Below are positions 22,084-38,454 of a stretch of 64,000 nucleotides of DNA, in pieces. Source of the DNA: Urbifossiella limnaea (GTDB lineage: Bacteria; Planctomycetota; Planctomycetia; Gemmatales; Gemmataceae); assembly GCF_007747215.1 (NCBI RefSeq), contig NZ_CP036273.1, forward strand, positions 2,278,322 to 2,342,321, read 5' to 3'. The position numbers and the translations under genes were made by a program. The number at the start of each line of letters is the position of its first letter. Within the stretch, counting starts at the first letter, position 1. The notes beneath the pieces were generated by a model. It was not told where the DNA came from and made no database searches. It was given only the letters and a program-made list of their open reading frames with translations.

Positions 22084-23844
22084 TCACTTCTTCGGCCGTA
22101 GGTCCGCGAACGCGGCCCCGAAGCGGCCGGCCTCGAAGGCGTTGAACGTCTTCATCCGCTCCTGCAACCGGATGTCGACGGATTGCAGGGTCGGGCTCGG
22201 GTGCGTCGTCGTCGGCGTCACCTCGTAGGTGAACTTCGCACCTGGCCGGAGCCGCGTCACCACGATGCCGGCGAGCTTGGCGTGCAGGGCGGCCACCGCC
22301 GGGGGGGGCGACTGTGGGGCGTCCTTCGGCGACGGTGGCGGGCCGGCCCCGTCCAGTGCCAGCGTCTCGTAGGCCCAGGCGTACAGCTGCGCCACCTCGG
22401 GGTCGGCCACGGGCCGGCCCGCGGCGGCGACCACGGCGTCGAGCAGCTTGTCGCGCGCCGCCGCGTCGTAGGTCAGCTTCCGCACCGCGGCGAGTGTTTC
22501 GTCCGACAGCTTCGTGCCGTTGGCGACGGCCTTCTGGATCAGCGCCGGGTCGCCGAACGTCTTCGCACCGAACGCCTTCGCCAGCTCCTTCTCGACCTCC
22601 AGCAGCGCGGCGCCGCGGCCGGCCAGAGCTTCACCCCCCTGGACGCCGGCAGCGTGGTCGGCGATCACCCGGGCCAGTGCGAAGGGCGCCGGGCGGAACA
22701 GCGGCCGACCCGGCGGGCCGACGTAGCCGCGGGCCTGGCGGTCGCTCGGGTACTTGAGGTCGTGGTGGCAGGCGTAGCAGTCGAACGCCGAGAAGTCGAG
22801 GCCGCCGCCGGTCTTCTCGGCGTCGGCGGCGAGCTGCGCCGTCAGGTCGAGGTTTGCCCGCAGGGTGGCGACCGTGGACTCGGCGAACCGCCGGGCCACG
22901 GCCGACTCGCCGGCCTTGTAGTGGAACGTGTTCCAGACCTTGGCCGCGTCGCGCTTCGCCAGTGCCGTGATGAACGGCATCTCGGACGCGAGCCCCCAGT
23001 GACGCGGCTGCTCTCGGGTGTACGCGAGCAGGTCGAGCGGCGGCAGCGGCGGGTGACCGGCGGCGTAGAACTCGTGGGCGACGAACCGGCCCTCCGCGAG
23101 GTTGCCGACGTGGCACGACGCGCACCGGGCCGCGGCGACGGCCGGGTCGCGGAGGTTCGCCAGCCCCCAGGCCGCTTTGCGGGCCGGGTCGGCGTCGCGC
23201 CAGGGGACGTACTTCGTGGACTCGTCCGGGTCCGGGTTGCCGTCGATCAGCACCGGGTCGCGGTGCGGGGAGCGGTACGCGCTGCCGTGGCCGTGGCACA
23301 TCTCGCATCCGACGCCCTCGGTCGTGACGAACGACGAGGGCGCCCACTTCGCTACCCGCGCCGGGGTGACCGGGAACTTCGAGGTCGCGTGGCACGCCAG
23401 GCAGCGAGTGTCGCCGGTGACCGTGTAGTCGTCCTTGCCGTAGGCCCGGCGGAGGTTGTCTTCCATGATGGTGGCGGTGCGGTTGGCCTCGGCCTTCGAC
23501 TTCCCCTTGTTGCGGTCCGTGAGGAGGTTCTTGTACGCTTCGGCGTGCAGGTCGTGGGCCTGCCACACCTTGTTTTCCCAGAGGCGGACGAAGGTGAAGC
23601 CCTTCGTCTCCTGGTACAACTCGACCTTCTCCGGGGTCTCCTCGCTGTGGCACGTCTTGCACTCGGACGCGCCGATCCAAGCGACTTCGCTCTCCGCCGG
23701 CGGAGCGGGCGGGATCGTCTTTCGCGCGCCGGCCGGCTGTGCGGCGCCCGCGGAGAAGCCGCCGGCCGCGAGGCCGACGACCACCCCGAACACCAGGGCC
23801 AGAACCCCGACCGCCCGCCCCATCCGTTCCGCCTGCGTGGTCAT
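22084..23844 (-). CDS. Exported pentahaem c-type cytochrome (third gene of operon)
   Basis: 586 residues. An N-terminal signal/anchor (VLALVFGVVVGLAAGGF) is followed by five CxxCH haem sites: CKTCH, CLACH, CEMCH, CASCH and CYACHH. The first four lie in the N-terminal half with cytochrome c554-like spacing, and extra histidines nearby can be distal ligands. A helical C-terminal half of about 250 residues carries no haem. It is a paralogue of the two upstream cytochromes but has a normal CX2CH first site and a longer C-terminal domain. The ATG overlaps the preceding gene's stop (ATGA, 23841-23844), so the genes are co-translated. Probable periplasmic electron carrier or enzyme; substrate unknown. 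Confidence 0.88.
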   Translation of the reverse strand: MTTQAERMGRAVGVLALVFGVVVGLAAGGFSAGAAQPAGARKTIPPAPPAESEVAWIGASECKTCHSEETPEKVELYQETKGFTFVRLWENKVWQAHDLHAEAYKNLLTDRNKGKSKAEANRTATIMEDNLRRAYGKDDYTVTGDTRCLACHATSKFPVTPARVAKWAPSSFVTTEGVGCEMCHGHGSAYRSPHRDPVLIDGNPDPDESTKYVPWRDADPARKAAWGLANLRDPAVAAARCASCHVGNLAEGRFVAHEFYAAGHPPLPPLDLLAYTREQPRHWGLASEMPFITALAKRDAAKVWNTFHYKAGESAVARRFAESTVATLRANLDLTAQLAADAEKTGGGLDFSAFDCYACHHDLKYPSDRQARGYVGPPGRPLFRPAPFALARVIADHAAGVQGGEALAGRGAALLEVEKELAKAFGAKTFGDPALIQKAVANGTKLSDETLAAVRKLTYDAAARDKLLDAVVAAAGRPVADPEVAQLYAWAYETLALDGAGPPPSPKDAPQSPPPAVAALHAKLAGIVVTRLRPGAKFTYEVTPTTTHPSPTLQSVDIRLQERMKTFNAFEAGRFGAAFADLRPKK

Positions 23845-25241
23845 CGGTCCCCCCCGAGCAGCCGGCCGAAATTCGCCTGCACCTGCGTCAGTCTAGTGGC
23901 GTCGAACCCGCGCGGGCTGTCCCACCGCCCACTTGTTGCCGGCGGGAACCGCAGCCCGTCTCGAATCTGCACCAGCGGCGCCTCCCAGGCCGGGTTCGCG
24001 GCGCGGCCGCCGGCGGAGTGGTAGACGGCGGCACACCCCAGGTATTGCTGCGCCAGCGAATCCCAGTCCGCGGCCGACGCCGACGCCTGTGCCAGCTCCG
24101 CGGCGACTCGCCGTGCGGTGCCGGTGGGAACTACTAGCCGGCCGGCGTCGTCGGCGTCCCGCGTGGCGGCGAGCCAGCGGTCGAGGGCGGCGACCAGCGC
24201 GGCGGCCTTCTCCTTCGCCGCGGCGCGCGGCGGGTTCGGGCGGTTCATCACGGCTTGCAGCGCCGTCAGTTCCTTCTCGATGCCGGCGCGGTAGCCGGGG
24301 GTGAGATCAAAGGCGGGGCCGGCGGCGGCGGTGTACCACGCCTCCCACGCCGGCCAGCCGAGGGCGCGGGTCGGCGACGCGCCGCCCTTCGGGTCGCGGT
24401 CGGCGACCGACTGGTGGCAGGCGTAGCAGCTCTGCCCCGCGAACTCGGGCCAGGGGCCGGCGCGGTCGGCGCGTGCCCGCAGCAGGTCGGCCGCAGCGCG
24501 GAGGCTGGCGACCTGCCCGACGGCCCACGCCTTGACCTCGAAGCCGGTGTCCGCGGCGGGGTCGGTCCAGTGCTTCCGGTACATCGGGCTGCTCTGGAAG
24601 CGTGCCATCTCGAAGTTCAGCCGCGGGTGGCCGGCGGCGATCAGGTCGTGGTCCACGTCGCGGGTGGCGTCGCCGACGTGACAGCCGACGCAGGCCGAGG
24701 CGCGGGCGACGACGTTCTTGGTCGGCACGAACCCGGTGGCGGCCTTTTCGCGGTTGCTCAGCGCCTTCCACTCCGGGAGGTAGTGAACGGTCAACCACTT
24801 CTCCTCAGGGCCGTGGCACCCCGCGCAACCGACACCCTCCGCGACGGCGCCCGCTTCCGCGCCGGGGACGGCGTGGCACTTCAAGCAGGTGGGGTTGGTG
24901 TGGGCGGGGCCGCAGCCGAGGAGCCTGGCGATGCGAACGGAGTCGGCGTTGAACAGGACGCGGTAGGCGTTGGCGTGCGGGTCGTGGGGGACCGGCGGCA
25001 CGCGGGTGAGGTCGGCGGCCCAAGTGGAGTGCTCGCTGAACCGCTCGCCGGCCCGGCCGCCGCCGTGGCACGACGCCGCGGCGCAACCAAGCCCGCCCGC
25101 GGTGGGAGCAGGTGCGGGGGCCGCTTGTTCCGCCGCCGGGGCTGGCGGTGTGGGGCCGAACAACGCGCCGGCGGCGAGGCCGGCGCCGGCGAGGAGGCAA
25201 ACCGCGGTTCGCACGGCTGGTCTCGCGGTCGTGGGTCGCAT
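23841..25241 (-). CDS. Exported pentahaem c-type cytochrome (second gene of operon), CX4CH first haem
   Basis: 466 residues with a signal peptide (VCLLAGAGLAAGALF). Haem sites: CAAASCH (a CX4CH spacing), CLKCH, CAGCH, CVGCH and CYACH. LIAAGHPRLNFEMARFQ, which supplies a conserved His between haems, is shared with the next cytochrome upstream, showing the two are paralogues. The CX4CH first site is shared too, so it is not a sequencing slip. Between the cytochromes the stop and start overlap by 4 bases. Likely a periplasmic multihaem protein of the cytochrome c554/multihaem family; the electron donor is unknown, but the divergent diaphorase operon is the obvious candidate. Confidence 0.87.
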   Translation of the reverse strand: MRPTTARPAVRTAVCLLAGAGLAAGALFGPTPPAPAAEQAAPAPAPTAGGLGCAAASCHGGGRAGERFSEHSTWAADLTRVPPVPHDPHANAYRVLFNADSVRIARLLGCGPAHTNPTCLKCHAVPGAEAGAVAEGVGCAGCHGPEEKWLTVHYLPEWKALSNREKAATGFVPTKNVVARASACVGCHVGDATRDVDHDLIAAGHPRLNFEMARFQSSPMYRKHWTDPAADTGFEVKAWAVGQVASLRAAADLLRARADRAGPWPEFAGQSCYACHQSVADRDPKGGASPTRALGWPAWEAWYTAAAGPAFDLTPGYRAGIEKELTALQAVMNRPNPPRAAAKEKAAALVAALDRWLAATRDADDAGRLVVPTGTARRVAAELAQASASAADWDSLAQQYLGCAAVYHSAGGRAANPAWEAPLVQIRDGLRFPPATSGRWDSPRGFDATRLTQVQANFGRLLGGDR

Positions 25242-25267
25242 CCGTGCGGGGAATCCTGTGGCGGCCG

Positions 25268-26620
25268 CTACCTTACCAGCGCCCGAACCGCGTCCGCGGC
25301 GCCGGGCGGCAGGTCGAACCGCACTGTGCCGCGCGGCAGCGTCAGCAGCTTCGCGGCCGCGGCGAACGCGGCCGGGTCACGCGTCGCCTTCGAGCGCTCG
25401 AAGGCGGCGGCTCCGTGGTAGACCTGCTCCGTCAGGTCTCGGTCCCACTCGCCAGCCGGGAGTGCCTTCGTGAACCACTCGCGGGCGAATGCCGTCCCGG
25501 AAGCACGCAGCGCCGCCAGTTCTGCCGCCGCCCTCGTCGCAGCCGCTTCCGCGCCGGCATTCGGTCGCGGGCCGCGCATTGCTGTGCGAACGCTCGACAG
25601 TGACGGCACCATCCGATCGACCGGCCAGATCGGCTGCCACGGCACCGAGCCGAGCGGCCGACCATTCGGCGCTGGGTACGCGGCGCCAGAGTCGCCGATG
25701 CGGTGGTGGCACGCGACGCAACTGTACTCGGCGAACTCCGGCCACGGGTCCGCACGCTTCGCCCGGTCGGCGGTCAGTTTGCACGCCGCCTCCGCGTGCG
25801 CAACCCGCCCGATCAGCCAGGCCCGCGTCTCAAAATCGGGGTCGGGGCGACTCTCCGGCTTACTCCGGTCGCGCTCGTACCAGTGCTTCGGCAGGATGAA
25901 CTGGTACGTGGCGAAGTCGAAGTTCAATCGCGGGTGACCGGCCGCGATCATGTCGTGGTTCATGTCACGCAGCGGCAGCCCGTTCCCCGCCGGGGCGCCG
26001 ACGTGACACCCGACGCACGCCAGGGCACGCTCGCCGAGCTCGTACAGCTTCGACATCCCGCCCGCGTCGTACCCGGCGGGGCGAGTCGGTGCCGTGAAGC
26101 CGGTGTGCGACTGGAGCCAGCCGCTGGCGTTGCCGTGGCAGGCCTCGCAGCTCACCCCCTCGGCGCGGAGCGAAACGGCGTGGGGGTCGTTGTTCGTTGC
26201 GAGGGTCGGGTTGGTGTGGCAGGCCAGGCAGCGGGCCTCGGCCGTCGCCTTCACCTTCGGCACGCCGGGCGACGCCTCGCCGGTCAGGGCGATCATCATC
26301 TTCGTCGCCAGTTCGCCGTCCAGCACCACGTAGGCCCGGCGGTGCGGGTCGGCGGCGGCCCACACGAGCGCCGACGAGGCCCAACTCGTCGGCGTGGGGC
26401 CGGTGCGGAACACGTCGCTACCGGGGGCACCGTGACAGCCGACGGACGAGCACCCACCCTGACCGACGGCGCGGCCGACGACCGCGGGAACCGCCTTGTC
26501 TTCGGGGCGTGTGGTCGCAGTTCCTTGGACGCCGGCTGCGGGGCGGACGGTCGCCCAGCACGCGGCCGTGACCAGCACGGCCGGTGCGAACACGGCGAGA
26601 ACGGAGCCGGTACGCGTCAT
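25268..26620 (-). CDS. Exported pentahaem c-type cytochrome (first gene of operon), CX4CH first haem
   Basis: 450 residues from ATG 26618-26620 (a start 22 codons upstream is in frame but would precede the signal peptide VLAVFAPAVLVTAACWATV). Haem sites: CSSVGCH (CX4CH), CLACH, CEACH, CVGCH and CVACHH. MIAAGHPRLNFDFATYQFIL matches its downstream paralogue. The mature protein is about 420 residues and probably periplasmic. It heads the three-cytochrome operon, 26 bases before the next gene, and is divergent from the membrane/decahaem/diaphorase operon across about 190 bp, so both arms may be co-regulated. Confidence 0.87.
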   Translation of the reverse strand: MTRTGSVLAVFAPAVLVTAACWATVRPAAGVQGTATTRPEDKAVPAVVGRAVGQGGCSSVGCHGAPGSDVFRTGPTPTSWASSALVWAAADPHRRAYVVLDGELATKMMIALTGEASPGVPKVKATAEARCLACHTNPTLATNNDPHAVSLRAEGVSCEACHGNASGWLQSHTGFTAPTRPAGYDAGGMSKLYELGERALACVGCHVGAPAGNGLPLRDMNHDMIAAGHPRLNFDFATYQFILPKHWYERDRSKPESRPDPDFETRAWLIGRVAHAEAACKLTADRAKRADPWPEFAEYSCVACHHRIGDSGAAYPAPNGRPLGSVPWQPIWPVDRMVPSLSSVRTAMRGPRPNAGAEAAATRAAAELAALRASGTAFAREWFTKALPAGEWDRDLTEQVYHGAAAFERSKATRDPAAFAAAAKLLTLPRGTVRFDLPPGAADAVRALVR

Positions 26621-26808
26621 GCGGTGCGGGCCGGTCGGGGGGTGGAAAAGACGACGGTAGTTTCCCATTTTTCCCGGTCGGTACAAGCCCGCGGACGCAT
26701 TTTCCGCTATCCTCCCCGCACGCCGCCCCGCACGGACCGACCTTCACCGTTCTGCGACAGGCCGTTGACACCGGGGCGGGGCGTGGTAGCATCCGGCTGT
26801 TTCACCCG
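26621..26808. promoter_or_regulatory. Divergent promoter region of the two redox operons
   Basis: 188 bp between the first pentahaem cytochrome and the membrane protein gene. It holds the rightward consensus promoter at 26765-26792 and, leftward, a weak TTGTAC with 17-base spacing to AAACTA inside the run TTTCCCATTTTTCCC (about 26661-26675). I see no obvious operator palindrome, but the AT-rich patch around 26660-26680 is the natural site for a regulator. Confidence 0.5.
26765..26792 (+). promoter_or_regulatory. Consensus sigma-70 promoter of the redox/export operon
   Basis: TTGACA (26765-26770), 16-base spacer, TAGCAT (26787-26792). Transcription would start near 26799, about 20 bases before GTG 26821. 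A perfect -35 is rare in this GC-rich window. Confidence 0.7.
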
Positions 26809-26820
26809 GTGGGGTTCCGC

Positions 26821-27789
26821 GTGCTCCTCAGCAAGAACTGGCCCGTCGGCCGCCGGGTGGCCGTGGTCCTCGCCGCCACCGCCGCCGCCGCGCTCGTGCC
26901 CTACGCGGTCATGCGGCTGACCGGCCGGTGGGTGGCGCCGAGCAGCCCCGCCGGCGTGCTCCTCGGGCTCGTCGGCGCCGCCATCATCTTCTTCGAGATG
27001 GCCCTGTACGTGCGGAAGAAACTCCGCCGCTTCAAGGGCTGGCCGCCGATCCTGTGGAACGTCCGCCTGTGGCTGTGGGTCCACGTCGTCCTCGGCATCG
27101 CCGTGCTGCCGATCATCCTGGTTCACGGCGGGTACGGCCTCGGCGGGTTCGTACCGGCCGCGACGATGCTCCTGTTCATCGCCACCATCGCCAGCGGCGT
27201 CTGGGGGCTCGTCGTCCAGCAGTGGCTGCCCCAAACGCTCATCGACGAGGTGCCCGACGAGACGGTCGCGTCGCAGGTGGACCGCGTGGCCGCGGGGTAC
27301 ATCGGCAAGAAGCCGGTGGTGTGGTCGGCGGACAACGACCGCGACCGCACCGGCGAGGTGTTCCGGCTGCTGGAGTCGCTGACGCTCGAAGGTGCCGAAC
27401 CCGGCGAGGTGCTGCCGGTGCCGGGCGGCGGGGCGGTGGTGGCGGCGCGGTCGGAGGCGCTGGTCCGCGGCAAGCCGGCCGAGGAGCTGTGGCTGTTCTG
27501 CGAAGGGATTCTCGTACCGTACCTGGAGCGCGGCCGGGCGTCGGTGTCGCCGCTGAAGTCGGAGTACGACGCCCGCCGCCGCTTCGCCCAGCTCCGCGAG
27601 ACGCTACCCGCCGAGGCGTTCCCCGCGATCGACCGGCTGGAGCAGCTGGCCCAGTACCGCCGCGAGTGGGACACGCAGCGGCGGGTGAACGGCTGGCTGC
27701 ACGCCTGGGTGCCGGTCCACCTCGGCCTGTCCGCGGCAATGACCGGGCTGATGATCGTCCACGCGGTCCGCGCCCTGAAGTACTGGTAA
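26821..27789 (+). CDS. Integral membrane protein, candidate b-type cytochrome subunit
   Basis: 322 residues from GTG 26821 (GTG 26809 is an alternative). Five hydrophobic segments: two at the N-terminus, two central (LWVHVVLGIAVLPIILVHGG, then AATMLLFIATIASGVWGLVV), and one at the C-terminus (HLGLSAAMTGLMIVHAVRAL). His residues sit inside or at the ends of helices in pairs about 10-14 residues apart, the pattern expected of bis-His haem b ligands. A soluble domain of about 140 residues lies between helices 4 and 5. No exact family recognised. It directly precedes the decahaem cytochrome (3-base gap), so it probably forms its membrane electron gate. Confidence 0.65.
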   Translation: MLLSKNWPVGRRVAVVLAATAAAALVPYAVMRLTGRWVAPSSPAGVLLGLVGAAIIFFEMALYVRKKLRRFKGWPPILWNVRLWLWVHVVLGIAVLPIILVHGGYGLGGFVPAATMLLFIATIASGVWGLVVQQWLPQTLIDEVPDETVASQVDRVAAGYIGKKPVVWSADNDRDRTGEVFRLLESLTLEGAEPGEVLPVPGGGAVVAARSEALVRGKPAEELWLFCEGILVPYLERGRASVSPLKSEYDARRRFAQLRETLPAEAFPAIDRLEQLAQYRREWDTQRRVNGWLHAWVPVHLGLSAAMTGLMIVHAVRALKYW

Positions 27790-27792
27790 CCC

Positions 27793-29316
27793 ATGCCACG
27801 CTCGCCGAGCCGCGATCGGTCCGACCGCTTCACCGGGTTCCGCGGCTACGTCCGCGTGCCGGACGCCTACGCCCGCGCCAAGTCGGTGGCGCTGCTGTCG
27901 GCCGGCGTGCTGCTCGGGCTGTGGCTGGTGGTCGAGGCGGCCCACCCGCGGGCCGGGGCGTTCCACACGCACGGCGAGCTGGCCAACCCGCACGCCGCGT
28001 GGGACCAGGACTGCGCCGCGTGCCACCGCTCGCAGGGGATCGGCGACTTCAGCCTGTCGAACGTGCTGAACGCCCGCGACCGCTGGCACGACCTGACGTG
28101 TACGAAGTGCCACGCCGGCCCGCCGCACCACGCCACCGTGGCCGACACCGCGTTCCACGACCGCTGCTCGAACTGCCACCACGACCACGCCGGCCGCACG
28201 ACTTCGCTCACGGACATCTCGGACGAGCACTGCGTGCGCTGCCACCAAAACCTACCGGCGGCGCACGTCGCGGGGCAGAGCGGCTACGAGGCCGTCGTCA
28301 CCGCCTTCGCGGGGAACCACCCCGAGTTCCGCGTGCTCCGGGACTACCCGCCCGGCCAGAACTACACGCCGCGGAAGTTGAAGTTCAGCCACGCCGTTCA
28401 CATGACGCCGGGCCTGACGAACCGCATGACCACAGAGCGCGTCGCGCAGCTGGGCGGCCCCGACGCCGCGAAGCGCTACGAGGGGTACAACACGGCCGAG
28501 GGCATCGCCCTGAACTGCGCCGCCTGCCACCAGCTCGACGCCCAGGCGCCCGATCATCCCGGCGTGCCGCGGGCCGAGGGGGCGTATTACCTGCCGATCA
28601 AGTTCGAGAACCACTGCCAGTCGTGCCACCCGCTCGCGGCTCCGCCGGGAAAGGCGGGCACCGCCGTGGTGGACGGATTCCCCGTCCCGCACCAGTCGGA
28701 GGGCGGCAGCCTCGCGGCGCTCCTCCGCGGCGGGTACGCCGCGAACCTGCTCAGGGCGAGCCCGGCCGCCGCGAAAGCGCCACTGCCCGGCGGCCGTCTC
28801 GACCCCGCCCCCGCGCCGAAGGAACTGACCGAGTTCGGGGCCGCCGTGGATTCGCTCACCAGCACCGCGCAGAACCAACTGCACGGCGGCGGTGCGACGT
28901 GCGGTAAGTGCCACTACCCGACACCCGGCGGCGCCTCCTTGCCGGGGGTCTCGAAGTTGCCGCAGCACACCGTGTGGTTCCAGCACGCGAAGTTTAACCA
29001 CGTCAGCCACCGCGGGCTGACGTGCGCCGAGTGCCACCCCGGCACCGGTCGCCCCGCCGCGCCGATCGGCAGCGTCAACGAGGTGGAGCCGATCGCCATC
29101 CGCGGGGTGAAGTCGTGCCAGGCGTGCCACGCCCCCGCCGGCACGCCGGTGGTGCAGGACGACGGCACGACGACGTTCGCGGCCGGGGTGCGGCACCGGT
29201 GCACCGACTGCCACCGCTACCACAACGGCGACCGCCCGCTGCACGGCCTCGGCAGCCCCCGCCGCGACCCGCAGACGCCCCAGACGCTTGCCGACTTCCT
29301 CAAGGGCGGGAAGTAG
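27793..29316 (+). CDS. Membrane-anchored decahaem c-type cytochrome
   Basis: 507 residues. A single N-terminal transmembrane anchor (VALLSAGVLLGLWLVVEA, about residues 35-52) is followed by ten CxxCH sites: CAACH, CTKCH, CSNCHHDH, CVRCH, CAACH, CQSCH, CGKCH, CAECH, CQACH and CTDCH. Several spare His residues can act as distal ligands. The architecture suggests a periplasmic electron wire of the cytochrome c3/paired-CXXCH type. The gene begins 3 bases after the b-type-like membrane gene and precedes the diaphorase genes, placing it between a cytosolic NAD(P)H oxidiser and extracytoplasmic acceptors. Acceptors are unknown. Confidence 0.9.
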   Translation: MPRSPSRDRSDRFTGFRGYVRVPDAYARAKSVALLSAGVLLGLWLVVEAAHPRAGAFHTHGELANPHAAWDQDCAACHRSQGIGDFSLSNVLNARDRWHDLTCTKCHAGPPHHATVADTAFHDRCSNCHHDHAGRTTSLTDISDEHCVRCHQNLPAAHVAGQSGYEAVVTAFAGNHPEFRVLRDYPPGQNYTPRKLKFSHAVHMTPGLTNRMTTERVAQLGGPDAAKRYEGYNTAEGIALNCAACHQLDAQAPDHPGVPRAEGAYYLPIKFENHCQSCHPLAAPPGKAGTAVVDGFPVPHQSEGGSLAALLRGGYAANLLRASPAAAKAPLPGGRLDPAPAPKELTEFGAAVDSLTSTAQNQLHGGGATCGKCHYPTPGGASLPGVSKLPQHTVWFQHAKFNHVSHRGLTCAECHPGTGRPAAPIGSVNEVEPIAIRGVKSCQACHAPAGTPVVQDDGTTTFAAGVRHRCTDCHRYHNGDRPLHGLGSPRRDPQTPQTLADFLKGGK

Positions 29317-29344
29317 CCCCCTGCTTTCTTCGCCGCTCGCGGCG

Positions 29345-31591
29345 ATGCACCGGACCGCCGCCATGATGATCGTGAAGCGACTCCGCGAGATCCAGAACCG
29401 GTACGGCTTCCTGCCGGACCGCGAACTGGCCCAGCTCGCGCGCCTCGTCGGCGTGCCGATGTACCGCATCGAGGAGGTCGCCAGCTTCTTCCCCGCGTTC
29501 CGCCAGGAGCGCGACAAGCCGGCCGTCCTCGAAGTCCGCGTCTGCCGCGACGTGACCTGCGCCCACAAGGGCGCCGGCAACCTCCTCAACAGTAAGACCG
29601 GCCTCCTGACGCTGTGCAACGACGACGCCATCGCGGCGGACCTGGCAAAGAACGCCCCCGGCTGGGCGGAGGAAGCCCGTAAGGCACCCGGCGGCAAGCG
29701 CATCGAGCTGCCGACGCCGTCGCCCGACCGCTGCAAACTGGTCGTCGAAGGGGTGTCGTGCCTCGGCCGCTGCGACCGCGCTCCGGCCGTGTGGGTCGAG
29801 CGCAACCCGATGCCGGCCGACGAGCACCACCACGCGTGGGTGTTCGCCCGCAAGGCCGGCGAGAAGGCCGACGCCTTCCGCCAGCGGATGGAAGCCACCA
29901 TCCGCGCCATCGCCGCCGGCGGGCACGTCGAGCCGGACACCGATTCGACATACGAGCCCGGCACGAACGTCGAGTACGGGATGCCGGCGCTGCCGCCCGA
30001 CCCGCGGGCGCGGTCGCTGGCCGAGTTCGAACTTCCGGACGAGCTGCCGAGCGCGAAGTGGGAGATCGACTGTTACGCCACCCAGAACCACCCGCGCGAC
30101 TACCGCGGGGTCAAGGAAGTGGCGAACTGGCTGGCCGAGCGCCCGGAGACGGCCCGCCAGTTGAAGGACGGCGAGCAGCCGGTGCCGCTCCCGCCCGACG
30201 GCCTCGGCGGCGACAAGCTCAAAGACTGGGTGAAGGCCAACCACCCGTTCCTGGCCGAGCTCGCGGCGTCGAACCTGCTCGGCATGGGTGGCGCCGGCGA
30301 GCCGGCCTACGACAAGTGGTCGCAGCTGCTCCTCGCTCGCGGCAAGGGGCCGGACAAGTACATCGTTTGTAACGGGGACGAAAGCGAGCCCGGCACCTTC
30401 AAGGACCGCGAACTGCTTCTGCGGACGCCGCACCTCATCGTCGAAGGGCTGATCCTCGCCGGGCTGCTGACGGGGGCGACGGCCGGGTACATCTACATTC
30501 GCCACGAGTACCACGAACAGATTCACGCGATCGACACCGAGATCAAGCGCGCGGAGCGGCTCGGCGCGTGCGGGCCGGACGTGTTCGGCAGCGGCATCAG
30601 CTTCCGCGCCGAGGTGTTCGAGAGCCCCGGCGGCTACATCTGTGGCGAGCAGAGCGCCCTGATCGAGGCGATGGAAGACAAGCGCGGCCAGCCGCGCCAG
30701 CGGCCGCCCGAACTGCAAACCAATGGTCTGTGGGACCAGCCGACGGTCGTGAACAACGTCGAGACGCTGGGGTGGGTCCCGTACATCATTACCCGCAAGG
30801 GCAAGTCCTACGCCGGCGCCGGGTACAAGGTGCCGGGCACGGAGGCGGCGTTCGGCGGCCGGCGGCTGTTCTCGATCAGCGGTGACGTGAAGCGGCCGGG
30901 CGTGTACGAGGTGCCGGTCGGCATCCCGCTCGGCGAGGTGTTCGACGACCCGAAGTACTGCGGCGGCGTGCCGAACGGCCTGTTCGCGGTCGCCCCGTCG
31001 GGGCCGTCGAGCGGTATCGTGCCTGCTGCGATTCCCATCGCCCCCGTACCCGACGCGGCCGGTTATGACGCGTGGCTGGCGAAGGTGCTCGGCAGCTTCC
31101 GGAGCCCGGCCGAGAAGGCGGCGATGGAGCGGATCGCCAAGAATCACCTGCCGCCCGGCGCGACGACTCTCGACATCCGCCAGCTGCCGATGGATTTGAA
31201 CTTCTTCCGCGGCGTGAACGGGGCGTTGCGCTTGAAGGTGGGCATCGCGCTGGGGGCGGCCATCGTCGTGTACGCCACCGGCACGGACGCGCTGTCGCAG
31301 GCGGTGAACTACACGCGGTTCTTCCGCAACGAGTCGTGCGGGAAGTGCGTGCCGTGTCGGCTCGGGTCGCAGAAGCTGTACCAGATCGGCCTCGACCTGA
31401 TCCGCCAGCGCGCCGCCGGTCAGGCGTTCAGCACGTCGGACCTGAAGGGCGTCGGCGAGGACGTGAAGACGCTGACCGAGGCGATGGCGCAGACCAGCAT
31501 CTGCGGGCTGGGCCAGATCGCCCCGGTACCGATGGCGTCGGCGCTGGAGTACTTCCTGCTGCCGGCGGCGCAGGCCGCGAAGGGGTCGTGA
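29345..31591 (+). CDS. NuoE-NuoF (HoxF-like) fusion: NAD(P)H diaphorase flavoprotein
   Basis: 748 residues from ATG 29345 (ATG 29363 also possible). The N-terminal thioredoxin-like NuoE part has [2Fe-2S] ligands Cys67, Cys72, Cys139 and Cys143; the gap between pairs is longer than usual, so it carries an insert. The NuoF part follows: NLLGMGGAGEPAYDKW (FMN site), IVCNGDESEPGTFKDRELL (NADH/FMN), FESPGGYICGEQSALIEAM, and the N3-type cluster motif SCGKCVPCR (Cys665, 668, 671) with a fourth Cys in TSICGLGQ. This is the same fusion as HoxF of bidirectional hydrogenases, but no hydrogenase genes are present. It would oxidise NAD(P)H, or reduce NAD, and pass electrons to the next gene's Fe-S chain. 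Confidence 0.92.
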   Translation: MHRTAAMMIVKRLREIQNRYGFLPDRELAQLARLVGVPMYRIEEVASFFPAFRQERDKPAVLEVRVCRDVTCAHKGAGNLLNSKTGLLTLCNDDAIAADLAKNAPGWAEEARKAPGGKRIELPTPSPDRCKLVVEGVSCLGRCDRAPAVWVERNPMPADEHHHAWVFARKAGEKADAFRQRMEATIRAIAAGGHVEPDTDSTYEPGTNVEYGMPALPPDPRARSLAEFELPDELPSAKWEIDCYATQNHPRDYRGVKEVANWLAERPETARQLKDGEQPVPLPPDGLGGDKLKDWVKANHPFLAELAASNLLGMGGAGEPAYDKWSQLLLARGKGPDKYIVCNGDESEPGTFKDRELLLRTPHLIVEGLILAGLLTGATAGYIYIRHEYHEQIHAIDTEIKRAERLGACGPDVFGSGISFRAEVFESPGGYICGEQSALIEAMEDKRGQPRQRPPELQTNGLWDQPTVVNNVETLGWVPYIITRKGKSYAGAGYKVPGTEAAFGGRRLFSISGDVKRPGVYEVPVGIPLGEVFDDPKYCGGVPNGLFAVAPSGPSSGIVPAAIPIAPVPDAAGYDAWLAKVLGSFRSPAEKAAMERIAKNHLPPGATTLDIRQLPMDLNFFRGVNGALRLKVGIALGAAIVVYATGTDALSQAVNYTRFFRNESCGKCVPCRLGSQKLYQIGLDLIRQRAAGQAFSTSDLKGVGEDVKTLTEAMAQTSICGLGQIAPVPMASALEYFLLPAAQAAKGS

Positions 31592-31596
31592 CGCAG

Positions 31597-31675
31597 GCGA
31601 GCGGCCCGCGCGAGCGGGCTGCTGGTAATCGCACCAGTGGCGCTCAGGAACAGCCCGCTCACGCGGGCCGCTCGC
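31597..31675. repeat. Palindromic repeat between the diaphorase and the Fe-S/cNMP gene
   Basis: Arms 31597-31623 and 31649-31675 are inverted repeats (GCGAGCGGCCCGCG core) with two or three mismatches and a 25-base loop. It starts 6 bases after the NuoEF stop, inside the operon, so it could attenuate or protect the transcript. The sequence looks like an element dispersed in Gemmata-type genomes (from memory, unverified). Confidence 0.75.
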
Positions 31676-31706
31676 CCGGCGAGCGTTCGACGACAAGGAC
31701 AGACCG

Positions 31707-34619
31707 ATGCCCGACCCCGCCACCCCCGCGCCCGACGACGACGGCTACGAACTCGTCGGCCCGGACACCACCTCGAACCTGTCGTCCGACGAGGACGACG
31801 TGCTCGTCCGCAAGGAGCGGGCCACCGCCGAGCAGTTCAAGGAACTGATCGAGGTCGTCCTCGACGGCTACGCCGTCACCGTGCCCAAGGCCGTCCCCAA
31901 GACCGACTCCGCGGGGGCCGAGCTGCGCGACGCCACCGGCAACCTGATCCCGCGCGCCACCACCGTTTACGACGCCGGCCGCGAACTCGTCCGCCTGGGC
32001 CGCTGGACCGAGACGGAACTCCGCGAGCGGCTGCCGGTGTTGTGCCACATGTCGCACCTCAACCCCGTCGCCGTGTGCCGCGTCTGCTCCGTCCACGTCG
32101 TGAAGGTGAAGAAGGGGACGAAGCGCGCCGAGCGGAAGCTGTTCCCCGCGTGCCACCTCGAAGTCAGCACCGGCCTCGAAGTCACCACCCGCCTCGGGGC
32201 CGAGCGGCACGAGCCGGAGCGGCTCAAGGCGATGCCCGAGAAGGAGCAGTCGAGCCTCGGCGACACCGCGAAGAAGGTGCAGAAGTCGGTCAGCCTCGTC
32301 GTCGAGATGCTGTACGCCGACCACAAGCCGGAGACCGTCCGCTGGCAGGACGACGGGCGGGAGTACAAGGAAAGCAAGCGCTACGAGAACGAGTTGCAGG
32401 CGGTCGCCGCCCGCATCGGCGTGACGAAGGTGCGCGACCGGTTGAAGCGGCCCGAGGGGGCGTTCAGCCGCAACCGGATGGCCCAGGACATCCCGAGCGA
32501 CACCGACCCGAACCGCCCCCACACCAAGCCGCTCCGCCGCATCCCGCTCGACCTGCTTGCCCCGACGGTGCCCGGCCACGAGACCCTCAGCCGCGAGGCC
32601 GACGCCGCCTGGGCCGCGTGGAACCGTGTCGTCGACGAGCGCTTCCCGTACTCGTCGCGCACCGTGGTCGTGGACCACGACAAGTGCATCCTGTGCGACC
32701 GCTGCGTCCGCTCGTGCTCGGAGGTCAAACCGTTCCAGGTCATCGGCCACACCGGCAAGGGGTACGCCACCCGGGTCAGCTTCGACCTCGACTTCCTGAT
32801 GGGGCCGCGCGCCCGCGCCGACGGCCAGGCCGACGCCAACCTGGCGCAATCCACCTGCGTGCAGTGCGGCGAGTGCATGACCAGCTGCCCCACCGGGGCG
32901 CTGTCGCTCCGCCGCCGGGTGCAGCCGCGGGCGTGGGACGACTCGCCGGAGCTGATCCCGCAGAACCCCAACATCCCGTTCCCCGAGGGCGGCGACTTCC
33001 TCACCGCGGAGGAGGTGCGGAACATCCGCGTGTACTACGTCCCGCCGGGGAAGCCGGCCGACCAGGGCCGGGTGATCGCGCCGTTCGCCTCGGTGCCGTT
33101 CGCGTACCTGAAATGGAACGAGGGGGCCGTCCGCCGGTGGGTCATCAAGCCGGGCCAGCGGAAAGTGCTGGCGTGGGGCGGCGAGTACGACACGACGGCG
33201 TTCCTCCTCACCGGCACCGGCAAGTTTAACGCCTACGAAACGGTCCGCGAGACGGTCACGCCCGGCTGGATCGGCCGGCTGCTGGGGAAGGAAGAAGAGA
33301 CGGTCGTGAAGCGCGAGCTGGGGCAGAAGATCAACGCCAACCCGATCCCCGGTACCGTGCTGCTGCTGGGCGAGATGGCCCCGCTGACGCAGAAGGCCCG
33401 CAACGCCACGATCGAGGTGTTCGCCGACCCCGACGAGCCGGGCCGGACGCTGCTCGAAGTCAGCCCCGGCGAGTACGTCGCGCCGCAGCACCCGGATGCC
33501 GCGCGGGACGTCGTGGTGTACGAGGTGACGCGGAACATGCTCGACATGTTCCTCCGCGCCCGCGACACCCGGCAGGCCGTGCGCGAGGTGTACCAGCCGC
33601 GGGCCATCGAGCGCGGCGTCGCAGAGTCCAAGCTGCTGATGGGGTCGGCGCTCCTGGCGGGTCTGCCGGAAAACGAGCGGCGGGCGGTGACCGACTTCCT
33701 GGTGCGCTCGGGGAAGCTCACGTACATTTCGGCCGCCCCCGGCGAGGTGCTGCTCGCGGAGGGGGAGCGCGCCCAGGACTTCTACTTCATCCGCATCGGC
33801 AACGTCGAGCTGTACAAGACGGTGAGCGGCCGCAAGCAGGTGCTCGGCCGGCTCGGCGACGGCGACTGCATCGGCGAGATCGCGCTGCTCGGCGACGAGT
33901 TGAAGGAGGCCGGCATCCTGCCGCAGAACGCCAGCACGACGCGCCGCCAGGCGACGGTCGCGGCCATCGACCCGATCGAGTTGGTGCGCGTCCCGGGTGG
34001 CGTTTTCGACGGCATGTGCGACCGCTTCCCGCAGGTGAAGGAGTTGCTGTTCAATCTGGTCCGGCTGCGGCTCAACCCGCCGAAGACGGTTCCCGCCGAG
34101 CTGACGCCGGCGTACGTGTCGCAGGGGCTGTTCCAGGGCCAGAAGATGCTGGTGTTGGACCTCAAGAGTTGCACCCGCTGCGACGAATGCACGCGCGCCT
34201 GCGCCGACACCCACGGCGGCAACCCCCGGCTCCTCCGCGACGGGATGCGGTTCGGCGACTTCCTCGTGGCCACGTCCTGCCGGTCGTGCCACAAGCCGTA
34301 CTGCATGGACGGCTGCCCCGTGGACGCGATCCACCGGAAGGGCACTCGGCTGGAGGTGCTCATCGAGAGCCACTGCATCGGCTGCGGGCTGTGCGAGCGG
34401 AACTGCCCCTACGGCTCGATCCACATGGTACCGCTCGGCAAGCCCGGCGGTGCCGGCACGGCGGTGGTGGCTCGACAGGCGGCGAACTGTGACCTGTGTG
34501 CGTCCGTCGGCGGGAAGCCGTTTTGTGTGAACGCCTGCCCGCACCACGCGGCCTTCCGCTGGGACGGCGACACCCTCCGCAACGCCGTGGCCGGGCGGAT
34601 GTCGGCGGCGAAGTCGTGA
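31707..34619 (+). CDS. HoxU/NuoG-like iron-sulfur protein fused to cyclic-nucleotide-binding-like domains and a C-terminal polyferredoxin
   Basis: 970 residues. About 55-170: NuoG/HoxU-type [2Fe-2S] domain (LCHMSHLNPVAVCRVCSVHV from about Cys113). About 320-400: two [4Fe-4S] motifs, CILCDRCVRSC (327-337) and CVQCGECMTSC (384-394). About 550-575: a cNMP phosphate-cassette-like stretch, LLLGEMAPLTQKARNATIEV. About 640-770: a second CRP-like domain, GEVLLAEGERAQDFYFIRIG then IGEIALLGD...RRQATVAAI, with a 12-residue insert in the cassette. About 815-960: DmsB/HybA-like ferredoxin with CTRCDECTRAC, CRSCHKPYC, CIGCGLCERNC and CDLC...C sites. No molybdopterin domain. It probably receives electrons from NuoEF and hands them on under cyclic-nucleotide control. 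The stop overlaps the permease start. Confidence 0.9.
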   Translation: MPDPATPAPDDDGYELVGPDTTSNLSSDEDDVLVRKERATAEQFKELIEVVLDGYAVTVPKAVPKTDSAGAELRDATGNLIPRATTVYDAGRELVRLGRWTETELRERLPVLCHMSHLNPVAVCRVCSVHVVKVKKGTKRAERKLFPACHLEVSTGLEVTTRLGAERHEPERLKAMPEKEQSSLGDTAKKVQKSVSLVVEMLYADHKPETVRWQDDGREYKESKRYENELQAVAARIGVTKVRDRLKRPEGAFSRNRMAQDIPSDTDPNRPHTKPLRRIPLDLLAPTVPGHETLSREADAAWAAWNRVVDERFPYSSRTVVVDHDKCILCDRCVRSCSEVKPFQVIGHTGKGYATRVSFDLDFLMGPRARADGQADANLAQSTCVQCGECMTSCPTGALSLRRRVQPRAWDDSPELIPQNPNIPFPEGGDFLTAEEVRNIRVYYVPPGKPADQGRVIAPFASVPFAYLKWNEGAVRRWVIKPGQRKVLAWGGEYDTTAFLLTGTGKFNAYETVRETVTPGWIGRLLGKEEETVVKRELGQKINANPIPGTVLLLGEMAPLTQKARNATIEVFADPDEPGRTLLEVSPGEYVAPQHPDAARDVVVYEVTRNMLDMFLRARDTRQAVREVYQPRAIERGVAESKLLMGSALLAGLPENERRAVTDFLVRSGKLTYISAAPGEVLLAEGERAQDFYFIRIGNVELYKTVSGRKQVLGRLGDGDCIGEIALLGDELKEAGILPQNASTTRRQATVAAIDPIELVRVPGGVFDGMCDRFPQVKELLFNLVRLRLNPPKTVPAELTPAYVSQGLFQGQKMLVLDLKSCTRCDECTRACADTHGGNPRLLRDGMRFGDFLVATSCRSCHKPYCMDGCPVDAIHRKGTRLEVLIESHCIGCGLCERNCPYGSIHMVPLGKPGGAGTAVVARQAANCDLCASVGGKPFCVNACPHHAAFRWDGDTLRNAVAGRMSAAKS

Positions 34620-35848
34620 GCCCCGCGGCGCTGGCGTGGCACAACCTCGCCCACAAGCGCGGCCGTACCGCCATCGCGGTCGCGGGCGTGGCCTTCGCCG
34701 TGGTGCTGGTGTTCATGGAACTCGGCCTGTACGACGGCGTCGGCCGAACCGCCGCGATGCTGTACGACGCCCTCCGCTTCGAGTTGCTCCTCGTCTCGTC
34801 CGAGTACGTGGACGTGAGCCGCACCGGCGACTTCCCCCGAGCCCGCCTCGCCCAGGCCCGCGCCGCGCCCGACGTGACCGACGCCGTCCCTGTCAGCATG
34901 GGTATCGGCACGTGGCGGATGCCGGCCCGCCGCGACCTCCTCGGCCGCGCCGTGCCCGCCGGCGGCACCCGCAGCATCAGCATCCTCGGCGTCCCGCCCG
35001 ACCGCCTCGCCGACGTGTTCGCCGTGGACCGCGGCCGCGTGTTCCGCTCCCCCGCGGAAGCGGCCCGCGCCGGCAAGCTCCTCACCGGGCCCGACGCCAT
35101 TCTGTTCGACACCCGCTCCAAACCCGAGTTCGGCCGCCTCGCCGACCTGATCGACGTACCCCCGGCCGGCGACCCCGCGACCGGGAACGTCCTGCGCTAC
35201 AACGGCCGCCATGTCGACGTGGTGGGCGGATTCGCGCTCGGCACCGGGTTCAGCTGGAACGCCATGATCCTGACCGCCGAGCCGACGTTCGCCGCGATCA
35301 CGTACCGCCCCGCGGACCGCGTCGCGTTCGGCCTCGTGTCGCTGGAGCCGGGCACCGACCCCGACGCCGCCGCGAGGACGCTGCGGGCCGCGCTGCCGGC
35401 GGACGTGCGGGTGATGACGCGCCCCGAGATCGAGGCGCACGAGAACCGCCACTGGATGCGGCTCACCTCGATCGGGCAGTTCTTACTGGTGGCGGTGGTG
35501 CTGGCCGTCGCCGTTGGGGTGATCTTCGTCTACCAGATGATGGCCGCCGACATCCGCGCCATGCTGCCGGAATACGCCACGGTGAAGGCGCTCGGCTACC
35601 GCCCGCCGTTCCTGGGCGGCGTGGTACTCGCGCAGGCCGCGTTCTTGGCCGTGCTCGGCTTCGTGCCCGGGTTCGTCGCCGCAGTCGGGCTGTACGCGGT
35701 GGCCCGCACCGTCGGCGGCATCCCGACCGAGATGACCGCTTCCCGCGCCGCCGTGGTGCTGGGTCTGACCTGCGGCATGTGCCTCGGCTCGGGCCTCCTG
35801 GCGGTGCGGAAGGTCCACGCCGCCGACCCCGCGGACTTGTTCGCATGA
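34616..35848 (+). CDS. FtsX/DevC-type ABC exporter permease 1
   Basis: 410 residues from GTG 34616, which overlaps the preceding TGA by 3 bases. Topology of MacB/DevC-type permeases: one N-terminal helix (AIAVAGVAFAVVLVFMELGL), a large extracytoplasmic domain of about 200 residues, then three C-terminal helices (QFLLVAVVLAVAVGVIFVYQ, FLGGVVLAQAAFLAVLGF, AVVLGLTCGMCLGSGLLAVR). The motif YATVKALGYRP is the coupling loop typical of DevC, and the C-terminus reads VHAADPADLF. It probably pairs with the next permease and the ATPase to export or mechanotransmit across the envelope. No DevB/MacA membrane-fusion protein is present. Confidence 0.88.
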   Translation: MSPAALAWHNLAHKRGRTAIAVAGVAFAVVLVFMELGLYDGVGRTAAMLYDALRFELLLVSSEYVDVSRTGDFPRARLAQARAAPDVTDAVPVSMGIGTWRMPARRDLLGRAVPAGGTRSISILGVPPDRLADVFAVDRGRVFRSPAEAARAGKLLTGPDAILFDTRSKPEFGRLADLIDVPPAGDPATGNVLRYNGRHVDVVGGFALGTGFSWNAMILTAEPTFAAITYRPADRVAFGLVSLEPGTDPDAAARTLRAALPADVRVMTRPEIEAHENRHWMRLTSIGQFLLVAVVLAVAVGVIFVYQMMAADIRAMLPEYATVKALGYRPPFLGGVVLAQAAFLAVLGFVPGFVAAVGLYAVARTVGGIPTEMTASRAAVVLGLTCGMCLGSGLLAVRKVHAADPADLFA

Positions 35849-37059
35849 GCCGCATCCCGCCCGTGCCGCTGGCGTGGCGGAACCTGGTCCACGACCCGGT
35901 CCGGTTCGCCCTGTTCGCCTCCGGCATCGGCTTCGCCGTAGTGCTGATGGGCGTGCAACTCGGCATCATGAACGCGATGCTCGACGGCAACACCCGCCTG
36001 TTCCGCAGCATCGACGCCGAGTTGGTGCTACTGAACCCGGCCCGGCCGGCGCTGGTGTTCGCCGACACGTTCAGCCGCCGCCGGCTCGAGCAGGCGGCCG
36101 GCGTCCCGGGCGTGGCGTCGGTCCACGCGATCTACGTCGAGCACAACGCCAGTACTCTCCGCCACACGTCCGCCGACCCCGCCGGTCGCACGCAGACGCG
36201 CAAGCTCCGCGTCGTCGGCGTGGACCCGGCGGCGCGCGTGTTCGACCTGCCGAACCTCGACCCCGGCGGGTGGGAGGCGCTGAATCGCCCCGGCACCACG
36301 CTGTTCGACCGCCTCAGCCGCCGGAACGCCGACGCGCCCGTGGAGACGGTTTTCGGCCCGTTCGCCGTCGGCACACACACCGAGCTTGCGGGTCAAAACC
36401 TCGAACTGGCGGCGGGGTTCGACCTGGGTTTCGACTTCGCCACCGACGGCACGCTGATCCTGAACGACCGGACGTTCACCCGCACCCTGCGGGAGCCCTA
36501 CTTCCCGCAGAGCCCGCAGGCCGGCGTCGACTACGCCGCGGTGCGCGTCGGGCCTGGCGCCGACCCGCTGGCCGTGCAGGACCGAATCCGCGCCGCGTTC
36601 GCCGCCGCCGCCGACGTGACGGTGCTGACGAAGGACGAACTCGTGGCGCGGGAGCGCGGCTTCTGGTGGGTGAGTACGCCGGTCGGGTTTGCGTTCGGGG
36701 CCGGTGTCGCTCTCGGGTTCGTCGTGGGCGTGGTGATCGTCTATCAAATCCTGTCGGGCGACGTGGCCGACCACCTGCCGCAGTACGCGACGCTGAAGGC
36801 GATCGGGTACCGCAACGGCTACCTGAACGGCATCGTGCTGCAAGAAGCGGGCATCCTGGCGATCACCGGCTACCTGCCCGGCCTGTTGGTGACGTGGCTG
36901 GCGTACCGGCTGCTGACGCACCTGACCGGGATGCCGCTGGAGCTGACCCCCGGCCGCGCCGGTCTGGTGTTCGCGCTGACCGCCGGGATGTGCGCCGCGT
37001 CCGGGCTACTGGCGGTGCGGCGCGTGAAGTCCGCAGACCCCGCGGACGTGTTCGGCTGA
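35845..37059 (+). CDS. FtsX/DevC-type ABC exporter permease 2
   Basis: 404 residues; ATG 35845 overlaps the previous stop (ATGA). Same topology as permease 1: N-terminal helix FALFASGIGFAVVLMGVQL, a long extracytoplasmic domain, three C-terminal helices, coupling loop YATLKAIGYRN, and ending KSADPADVFG. The shared C-terminal ADPAD motif and coupling loop show the two permeases are paralogues and probably form a heterodimer. The context with the cNMP-linked ATPase and Fe-S protein is unusual for DevC-type permeases. Cargo unknown. Confidence 0.88.
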   Translation: MSRIPPVPLAWRNLVHDPVRFALFASGIGFAVVLMGVQLGIMNAMLDGNTRLFRSIDAELVLLNPARPALVFADTFSRRRLEQAAGVPGVASVHAIYVEHNASTLRHTSADPAGRTQTRKLRVVGVDPAARVFDLPNLDPGGWEALNRPGTTLFDRLSRRNADAPVETVFGPFAVGTHTELAGQNLELAAGFDLGFDFATDGTLILNDRTFTRTLREPYFPQSPQAGVDYAAVRVGPGADPLAVQDRIRAAFAAAADVTVLTKDELVARERGFWWVSTPVGFAFGAGVALGFVVGVVIVYQILSGDVADHLPQYATLKAIGYRNGYLNGIVLQEAGILAITGYLPGLLVTWLAYRLLTHLTGMPLELTPGRAGLVFALTAGMCAASGLLAVRRVKSADPADVFG

Positions 37060-37071
37060 CAAGGCGGTTCG

Positions 37072-38454
37072 ATGTCGTCAACCCTCCCGCCGCCCGGCCT
37101 GCCCGTCCTCCGCATTCGCGGGGTGAACCACCACTTCGGCACCGGCGAGACGCGCACGCAGGTTCTGTTCGAGAACACACTGGAGGTGATGCCCGGCGAG
37201 CTGGTCATCATGAGCGGCCCGTCCGGCTCCGGGAAGACGACCCTGCTGACGCTCATCGGCGGCCTCCGCACGCTGCAATCCGGCGAGATCGAGGTGTGGG
37301 ACGCCGGCCGCGGCGACTACGCCCGCCTCGCCGGCATGGCCGAGGAGCAGCTGGTCGGCGTCCGCAGGCTGATCGGGTTCATCTTCCAGCGGCACAACCT
37401 GTTCGACTCGCTCACCGCGATCCAGAACGTGCGGATGGCCCAGCGCCTGAAGGGCGCCGCCGACCCGGACGCCGACGCCCGCGCGCTGCTGAGCTACCTC
37501 CTTCTCGGCGACCGCGACATCGACGACAAGCCGCAGGCGGCGAAGTTCCGCAACAAACCCGCGGCGCTGTCCGGCGGGCAGCGGCAGCGCGTCGCCGTCG
37601 CGCGGGCGCTCGTCAACCGCCCGAAGCTCGTCCTCGCCGACGAGCCGACCGCGGCCCTCGACGCCAACAGCGGCTTGGCCGTCGTCACGCTGCTGAAGTG
37701 CCTCGCGCGCCGCCGGGCGCCCGAGGAGCTGATGAAGTTCGTCCGCAGCGCCGTGGACTCGGCCGACGGTGGTCGCCTGGCCGACTGGCAGGTGCCGCTG
37801 CTGGACCGCGTCGCGGCCGAGACCGGCACCACGAGCCTGATCGTGACGCACGACGCCCGCATCATGAACATGGCCGACCGGATCGTCCACATGGAGCGCG
37901 GGCGGATCGAGTCGAACGTGGTGGTGGCGGAGCGGCTGTTCGTGCGCGAGGGCCTGCGGCGGTCGCCGGTGTTCGCGGCCATCCTGCCGGACGAGCAGCA
38001 GAAGATCGCCGACCAACTGCTCGTCGGCGTTCACCCCGACCAACCGGTGCGGCCGGACCACGCCGCGACCGGGCGGGTGGAGGTGTTCGGGCCGGGGCAG
38101 GCGATCGTGCGCGAGGGCGACGCGGTGGACGAGCGGAGCAAGTTCTACCTGGTTCGCCGCGGGTCCGTGGACGTGGTGACGACCGCCGCCGACGGCACCG
38201 AACACACCCTGGACCGTATGGGGCCGGGCGGCTACTTCGGCGAGGTGGCGCTCTTGATGAACCAGCCGCGGAACGCGACGGTGCGGGCGGCGACGCGGGT
38301 GGAGGTGTACGCGGTGGACCGGACGACGTTCGACCGCTTCCGGGCCGAGAGCCGGCCGTTCATCGACCGCATCCTGACGAACTTCCTTCGCCGTGCCCCC
38401 GACGCCGGCCCCGCCGAGCGGCCGGGCGGGCCGCTACACGAAGCCGGGGGCTGA
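37072..38454 (+). CDS. ABC exporter ATPase (DevA/LolD-like) with C-terminal cyclic-nucleotide-binding domain
   Basis: 460 residues. ABC domain at about 1-290: GPSGSGKTT (Walker A), LSGGQRQRVAVARAL (signature), LVLADEPTAALD (Walker B), LIVTHDARIM (H-loop). A helical insert of about 35 residues lies between Walker B and the H-loop (EELMKFVRSAVDSADGGR). C-terminal CRP-like domain at about 335-445: GQAIVREGDAVDERSKFYLV and the phosphate-binding cassette GEVALLMNQPRNATV with its cAMP/cGMP-contacting Arg. The fusion implies direct control of transport by a cyclic nucleotide or similar ligand. The TGA stop (38452-38454) lies inside a palindrome. Starts 12 bases after permease 2. Confidence 0.92.
   Translation: MSSTLPPPGLPVLRIRGVNHHFGTGETRTQVLFENTLEVMPGELVIMSGPSGSGKTTLLTLIGGLRTLQSGEIEVWDAGRGDYARLAGMAEEQLVGVRRLIGFIFQRHNLFDSLTAIQNVRMAQRLKGAADPDADARALLSYLLLGDRDIDDKPQAAKFRNKPAALSGGQRQRVAVARALVNRPKLVLADEPTAALDANSGLAVVTLLKCLARRRAPEELMKFVRSAVDSADGGRLADWQVPLLDRVAAETGTTSLIVTHDARIMNMADRIVHMERGRIESNVVVAERLFVREGLRRSPVFAAILPDEQQKIADQLLVGVHPDQPVRPDHAATGRVEVFGPGQAIVREGDAVDERSKFYLVRRGSVDVVTTAADGTEHTLDRMGPGGYFGEVALLMNQPRNATVRAATRVEVYAVDRTTFDRFRAESRPFIDRILTNFLRRAPDAGPAERPGGPLHEAGG

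Follow-up and report, generated by a model that had tools for sequence, protein, structure and literature searches.

The window is a 64,000-nucleotide stretch of the Urbifossiella limnaea genome, and its gene at 37072-38454 (plus strand) is an open reading frame of 460 residues that encodes an ABC exporter ATPase with a C-terminal cyclic-nucleotide-binding (CNB) domain. We call it DevA-CNB. It is the last gene of a compact run in the order FeS-CNB, DevC1, DevC2, DevA-CNB. FeS-CNB (31707-34619, plus strand) is an iron-sulphur protein that resembles NuoG/HydN and whose internal CNB domain scores 61.3 bits, so the first-pass annotation was right to place the same domain type three genes upstream of the ATPase. 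The distal permease gene DevC1 (34616-35848, plus strand) has a GTG start and scores 244.9 bits against TIGR01185, below the cut-off of 290.35. The proximal permease gene DevC2 (35845-37059, plus strand) is above it at 303.5 bits. DevC1 and DevC2 overlap by ATGA, and the gap between DevC2 and DevA-CNB is 12 bases. FeS-CNB itself belongs to a redox operon (26584-34619, plus strand) that also holds a membrane protein without a Pfam hit, a multihaem cytochrome and a NuoE-NuoF-like fusion (29288-31591, plus strand, start uncertain). Three divergent cytochrome c554-like genes lie beside this operon on the minus strand (22084-26686; 22084-23844 in the Pfam scan). A small secreted-looking protein of Gly-Gly-Phe-Pro-Gly repeats is encoded at 19374-19880, also on the minus strand.

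DevA-CNB is a member of the DevA family, with 316.9 bits against TIGR02982 (cut-off 295.8). It misses the equivalog cut-offs of LolD (148 vs 307.75) and MacB (135.9 vs 966). Its PF00005 ABC ATPase domain covers residues 36-194. The PF00027 CNB domain covers residues 338-425 (38083-38346, plus strand) and is far beyond chance at 82.1 bits over a cut-off of 27.5. The phosphate-binding cassette within it, GEVALLMNQPRNATV (38239-38283, plus strand), is intact: it reads FGEVALLMNQPRNATV and has the canonical Glu391 and Arg400, which together with the PF00027 score put the domain in the CNB superfamily. Both the intact domain and the canonical cassette had been claimed in the first-pass annotation and both hold, but its label of the domain as CRP-like does not. 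The best solved relatives by sequence are the PKG/PKA regulatory domains and the SthK channel, and the CRP transcription factor is absent from the best 60 of 212 solved-structure matches. An AlphaFold2 model of DevA-CNB has a mean pLDDT of 81.9, with ten-residue blocks over the CNB domain (331-430) at 81-97. The ATPase part of this model matches MacB and LolD (Z 26-27). Since the structural matches span mainly residues 9-314, the fold of the CNB domain rests on sequence.

An insert between Walker B and the H-loop had also been pointed out, and it is there. DevA-CNB has 72 residues from Walker B (DEPT) to the H-loop (VTHD), whereas this stretch is 35-37 residues long in 14 relatives with the fusion and 36 in 6 without it. 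This implies an insert of about 36 residues, which the alignment places between the D-loop and the H-loop at about residues 214-249 (37711-37818, plus strand). It is present in 26 fused loci and missing from 17, and it is always paired with a longer beta2-beta3 loop that has no glycine. The Gly169-equivalent of this loop is missing in 26/26 insert-bearing loci, that of the window included, and is kept in most of the 17 insert-free loci (it is Cys in L120). Kannan et al. 2007 describe this glycine as tied to the cassette arginine in CNB domains (PMC2246266), so DevA-CNB lacks the glycine of this canonical coupling despite its intact cassette. The 26 insert-bearing rows form a firm clade (100/99) in a tree built from 58 DevA rows. 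Since insert and longer loop are confined to one clade, a functional contact between them is just a guess. By alignment and tree, the insert is a lineage trait and no general component of the fusion.

The fusion itself is not restricted to this genome, and its cassette is not degenerate in orthologues; either would have told against the first-pass annotation by its own account. DevA with an in-frame downstream CNB domain occurs in 21 of 59 related genomes, a list assembled by hand that counts G004 as fused, with its gene lying in two parts on separate contigs. A contig scan of GTDB species gives 23 fused loci, planctomycete wherever named. A sample of the phylum (392 genomes) has 10 matches at E <= 1e-85, and 4 of them span the CNB domain. 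These include the window genome and one genome from outside the class. The search scored 5 candidates per genome at that threshold, so 4/392 is a lower bound. A plasmid search for fusions outside the Planctomycetota gave no convincing one among the matches listed; the rows with 89% coverage were rejected, as where named they are sugar-type (UgpC) ATPases at 28-29% identity. In the 58-row tree all 43 fused rows fall on one side of a branch with weak support (49/78), which weakly supports a single origin of the fusion. Of these 43 loci, 41 retain the cassette arginine while the rest of the CNB domain diverges widely. At the acidic position 34 loci have Glu, 7 have Asp (L038, L039 and five from Fimbriiglobus) and 2 have lost the acidic residue. 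The decayed cassettes (L119 and L120; FGMIS..., with Arg replaced by Val) come from G053 and G057, sister genomes in one genus that still have the CNB domain. Rows L104, L131, L132 and L134 were dropped as duplicates, as were L001-L014, which repeat later loci (the sole one used is L011, for the G004 cassette). L031 is partial and was excluded from A2, and L121 has almost no upstream sequence.

DevA, DevB, DevC and CNB were scored with profiles built from the compared loci, and at least 6 kb of upstream sequence was required. Two DevC genes are found in 27 of 34 fused loci vs 1 of 10 unfused loci. The order is DevB-DevC-DevC-DevA in 24 of the 34, and 3, including the window, have two DevC genes and no DevB nearby. 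One DevC is found in 5 and none in 2. Missing parts can turn up elsewhere: G013 has a DevB and a second DevC at another site, and G033 has a distant DevB. Nine unfused loci are DevB-DevC-DevA and the other is DevB-DevC-DevA-DevC (L123, in G046). The 7 fused loci without a nearby second DevC, and the unfused L123 with two, count against a strict link between fusion and doubling. The survey of domain architectures and neighbours that had been proposed supports a DevA that is regulated via an appended CNB domain of the conserved nucleotide type. In the DevC tree a deep split (SH-aLRT 100) separates the distal from the proximal DevC of fused operons, with the lone DevC of unfused operons on the proximal side. 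We infer from this split that the fused form probably has a DevC heterodimer. The Anabaena devB-devC-devA operon is described with a single devC (PMC8277102), so with two DevC genes the window has a DevBCA-like variant and no standard DevBCA. No DevB was found within the 64-kb window. The DevB of this genome (TIGR02971, 251.8 bits, cut-off 129) is 3.11 Mb off at 5.42 Mb, where it adjoins DUF3307 as in relatives.

Class III cyclases (PF00211) are present in 49 of the 59 related genomes. Each of the 19 fused genomes with a kept cassette has at least one, and among all 21 fused genomes the PF00211 search came up empty in G053 and G057 only, the two with the decayed cassette. The association of cassette loss with cyclase absence (p = 0.005) is overstated because these two share a genus, so the losses coincide once, as one event. 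Cyclases are also found near Dev genes. G016 has a response-regulator cyclase directly upstream of DevB on the same strand. The sole cyclase of G013 is about 5 kb from its DevB-DevC pair. In G046 an FHA/GAF-type cyclase (GAF by Pfam, FHA by eye) lies upstream of the unfused two-DevC operon, and L024 has a cyclase 2.1 kb downstream of its Dev genes on the opposite strand. That is 4 observed vs 0.30 expected in 897 kb, but the count is post hoc, as it was made after seeing three and three of the four seeded the model used. This and the unfused state of the G046 operon weaken the link. Of the 5 cyclase matches in the window genome, the top one is a response-regulator cyclase that is 45-46% identical over 420-434 residues to the Dev-adjacent cyclases of G016 and G013; mutual identity among the three is 44-46%. 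All three carry the Lys of KxKTxGD and the Asp of FDxWG, which we take to mark adenylate rather than guanylate cyclases.

A CNB domain shared by many relatives, together with a doubled membrane part, suggests cAMP control of export. We argue that the best reading is a cAMP-controlled tripartite DevB-DevC1-DevC2-DevA exporter, with a probability of about 0.6, where ligand and regulation are predicted from sequence. It builds on the DevA and CNB domains, the conserved cassette, the company of two DevC genes and DevB, and the decayed cassette of the two fused genomes where the PF00211 search came up empty. DevA-CNB would be the ATPase of an exporter of the DevBCA type. DevC1 and DevC2 probably pair as its heterodimeric permease, and two ATPase copies would each carry a cyclic-nucleotide-binding switch. 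Class III cyclases would make cAMP, which would bind the CNB domain. This domain, tethered just past the last ATPase strand via helices 285-316, would then move against the ATPase dimer and so set its activity. PKA and SthK suggest, as a first guess, that the ligand would relieve inhibition. DevB and an outer-membrane duct would carry out a lipid-like or other substrate. It must be noted that cyclases are common in these genomes anyway.

One can imagine a genuine ligand switch that answers to another nucleotide such as ppGpp, GTP or cGMP. We consider this unlikely, though it is the alternative that survives best. The CNB domain of the ABC exporter HetC is reported to bind ppGpp (Kd 59 uM) and no cAMP in thermal shift, and HetC lost its function when the domain was deleted (PMC10986499). 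By analogy, an exporter-borne CNB domain may bind ppGpp here too. The insert clade without the beta2-beta3 glycine, which is tied to cAMP-type domains, argues for this alternative, and Asp in place of the cassette Glu in 7 loci argues against cAMP. However, the cassette is canonical in both Arg and Glu, and cassette loss coincides with cyclase absence. It is more doubtful still that the domain is a structural add-on for dimerisation or docking, one that would stabilise the two paired ATPases below a heterodimeric permease and has no regulatory ligand. The domain does accompany the two-permease form, and its presence in two genomes with decayed cassettes means the fold can be retained without a ligand site. 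However, this does not explain why a ligand-contacting Arg is kept almost throughout the fused loci while its surroundings diverge.

The first-pass annotation proposed a shared messenger for redox flow and export. What stands of this is that two of the 3 CNB domains above cut-off in the 7.8-Mb genome are at this locus, and that FeS-CNB and DevC1 share a GTGA stop/start overlap. The overlap is kept in G001 at 81% DNA identity, so the two genes are now probably co-expressed. What does not stand is the adjacency as a general sign of a shared circuit, since among the relatives compared FeS-CNB is next to exporter genes only in the window genome (G000) and G001. The redox operon occurs without the exporter in G003, G021 and G011, and in a different order in G049. 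G003 has no DevA-CNB match. G021 and G002 have a complete DevB-DevC-DevC-DevA on a contig other than that of FeS-CNB. The Dev genes of G004 are also on contigs other than that of FeS-CNB, and its Dev operon is itself split between two. FeS-CNB is a neighbour by rearrangement and no conserved part of the exporter. In its CNB domain (33732-34025) some 14 additional residues separate GEIALL from RRQATV and interrupt the cassette, which makes ligand binding less certain than in DevA-CNB. The third CNB protein over the cut-off in the genome (L178, 7246-9249) carries its CNB domain at the N-terminus of a patatin-like phospholipase. G046 has a second, different redox-CNB-exporter neighbourhood (L123, 1-9746), where an NADH-dehydrogenase-like CNB protein (by eye), the cyclase and DevB-DevC-DevA-DevC are all on one strand.

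A dedicated cAMP circuit that couples respiration and export, with FeS-CNB and DevA-CNB as paired effectors, could draw on the kept junction, the crowding of CNB domains and the G046 arrangement upstream of its Dev operon, but it is improbable as the units are apart elsewhere and DevB was left 3.1 Mb away.

We argue instead that in the lineage of the window DevC1-DevC2-DevA would have moved behind the redox operon and left DevB elsewhere. As a result, the ATPase now probably depends on that operon for its expression. A single large (3.1-Mb) inversion fits the arrangement of the window genome. An NMNAT-like/NAD-kinase gene is behind FeS-CNB in G003 and behind DevB, on the minus strand, in the window genome. 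The gene at L160 7670-9238 is an NAD kinase fused behind a nicotinate-nucleotide-adenylyltransferase-like part. However, G001 has a different gene (kinase-like by eye) behind DevB, and L017 has an NMNAT/NAD-kinase end near its Dev operon, so one inversion is no simple account of the whole history. The idea that the inversion is symmetrical about the replication axis was set aside, as the start of contig 1 of the window genome has a weak DnaA-like match (55-486) and the strong one is at 280 kb (279914-280363). The redox-exporter neighbourhood is young yet kept, and the junction is a caution against inferring function from gene order. The fullest version of our reading has cAMP-gated asymmetric (DevC1/DevC2) tripartite exporters across the Planctomycetia under two-component-driven cyclases, with a rearrangement that put the ATPase of this lineage in a CNB-bearing NADH-multihaem redox unit so that one messenger would govern both. 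We doubt that it is correct in all its parts.

Taken together, the DevA-CNB system is a genuine and conserved form of a known exporter, probably regulated and open to direct testing. We found no paper on the fusion among the listed titles and abstracts of the open-licence literature. A conserved family would provide an ATPase with a built-in ligand site, in which intact cassettes and naturally decayed ones can be compared. It would also give cAMP a role in planctomycetes, where the genomes studied here have few CNB proteins, and add direct second-messenger control to the MacB/Lol-type exporters.

One known system close to it is the DevBCA glycolipid exporter of Anabaena/Nostoc, which is described as exporting heterocyst glycolipids with a TolC partner (PMC8277102). 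DevA, DevC2 and DevB pass the cut-offs of its families (TIGR02982, TIGR01185, TIGR02971), and its gene order DevB-DevC-DevA is also usual in the compared loci. The window system differs from it in the second DevC, the CNB domain on DevA, the insert before the H-loop and the unlinked DevB. MacB and LolCDE have the same ATPase fold and FtsX-type permeases but no CNB domain. CNB family 16 ('AAA_Atpase'), as Kannan et al. 2007 describe it, likewise joins a CNB domain to an ATPase, and several members have an ABC-transporter-like membrane region (PMC2246266). Compared by that description, its cassette Arg is quite variable, in contrast to the one almost always kept in DevA-CNB. The closest precedent is HetC, though it is a different ABC exporter, and it is the one worked example of CNB control of such an exporter among the papers covered (PMC10986499). 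Like DevA-CNB it has a CNB domain fused to an ABC exporter, and that domain is reported as needed in vivo. HetC is a single polypeptide with a C39 peptidase and an N-terminal CNB domain, whereas in the window system the CNB domain is C-terminal, the DevA ATPase that bears it is a separate protein, and a peptidase is missing.
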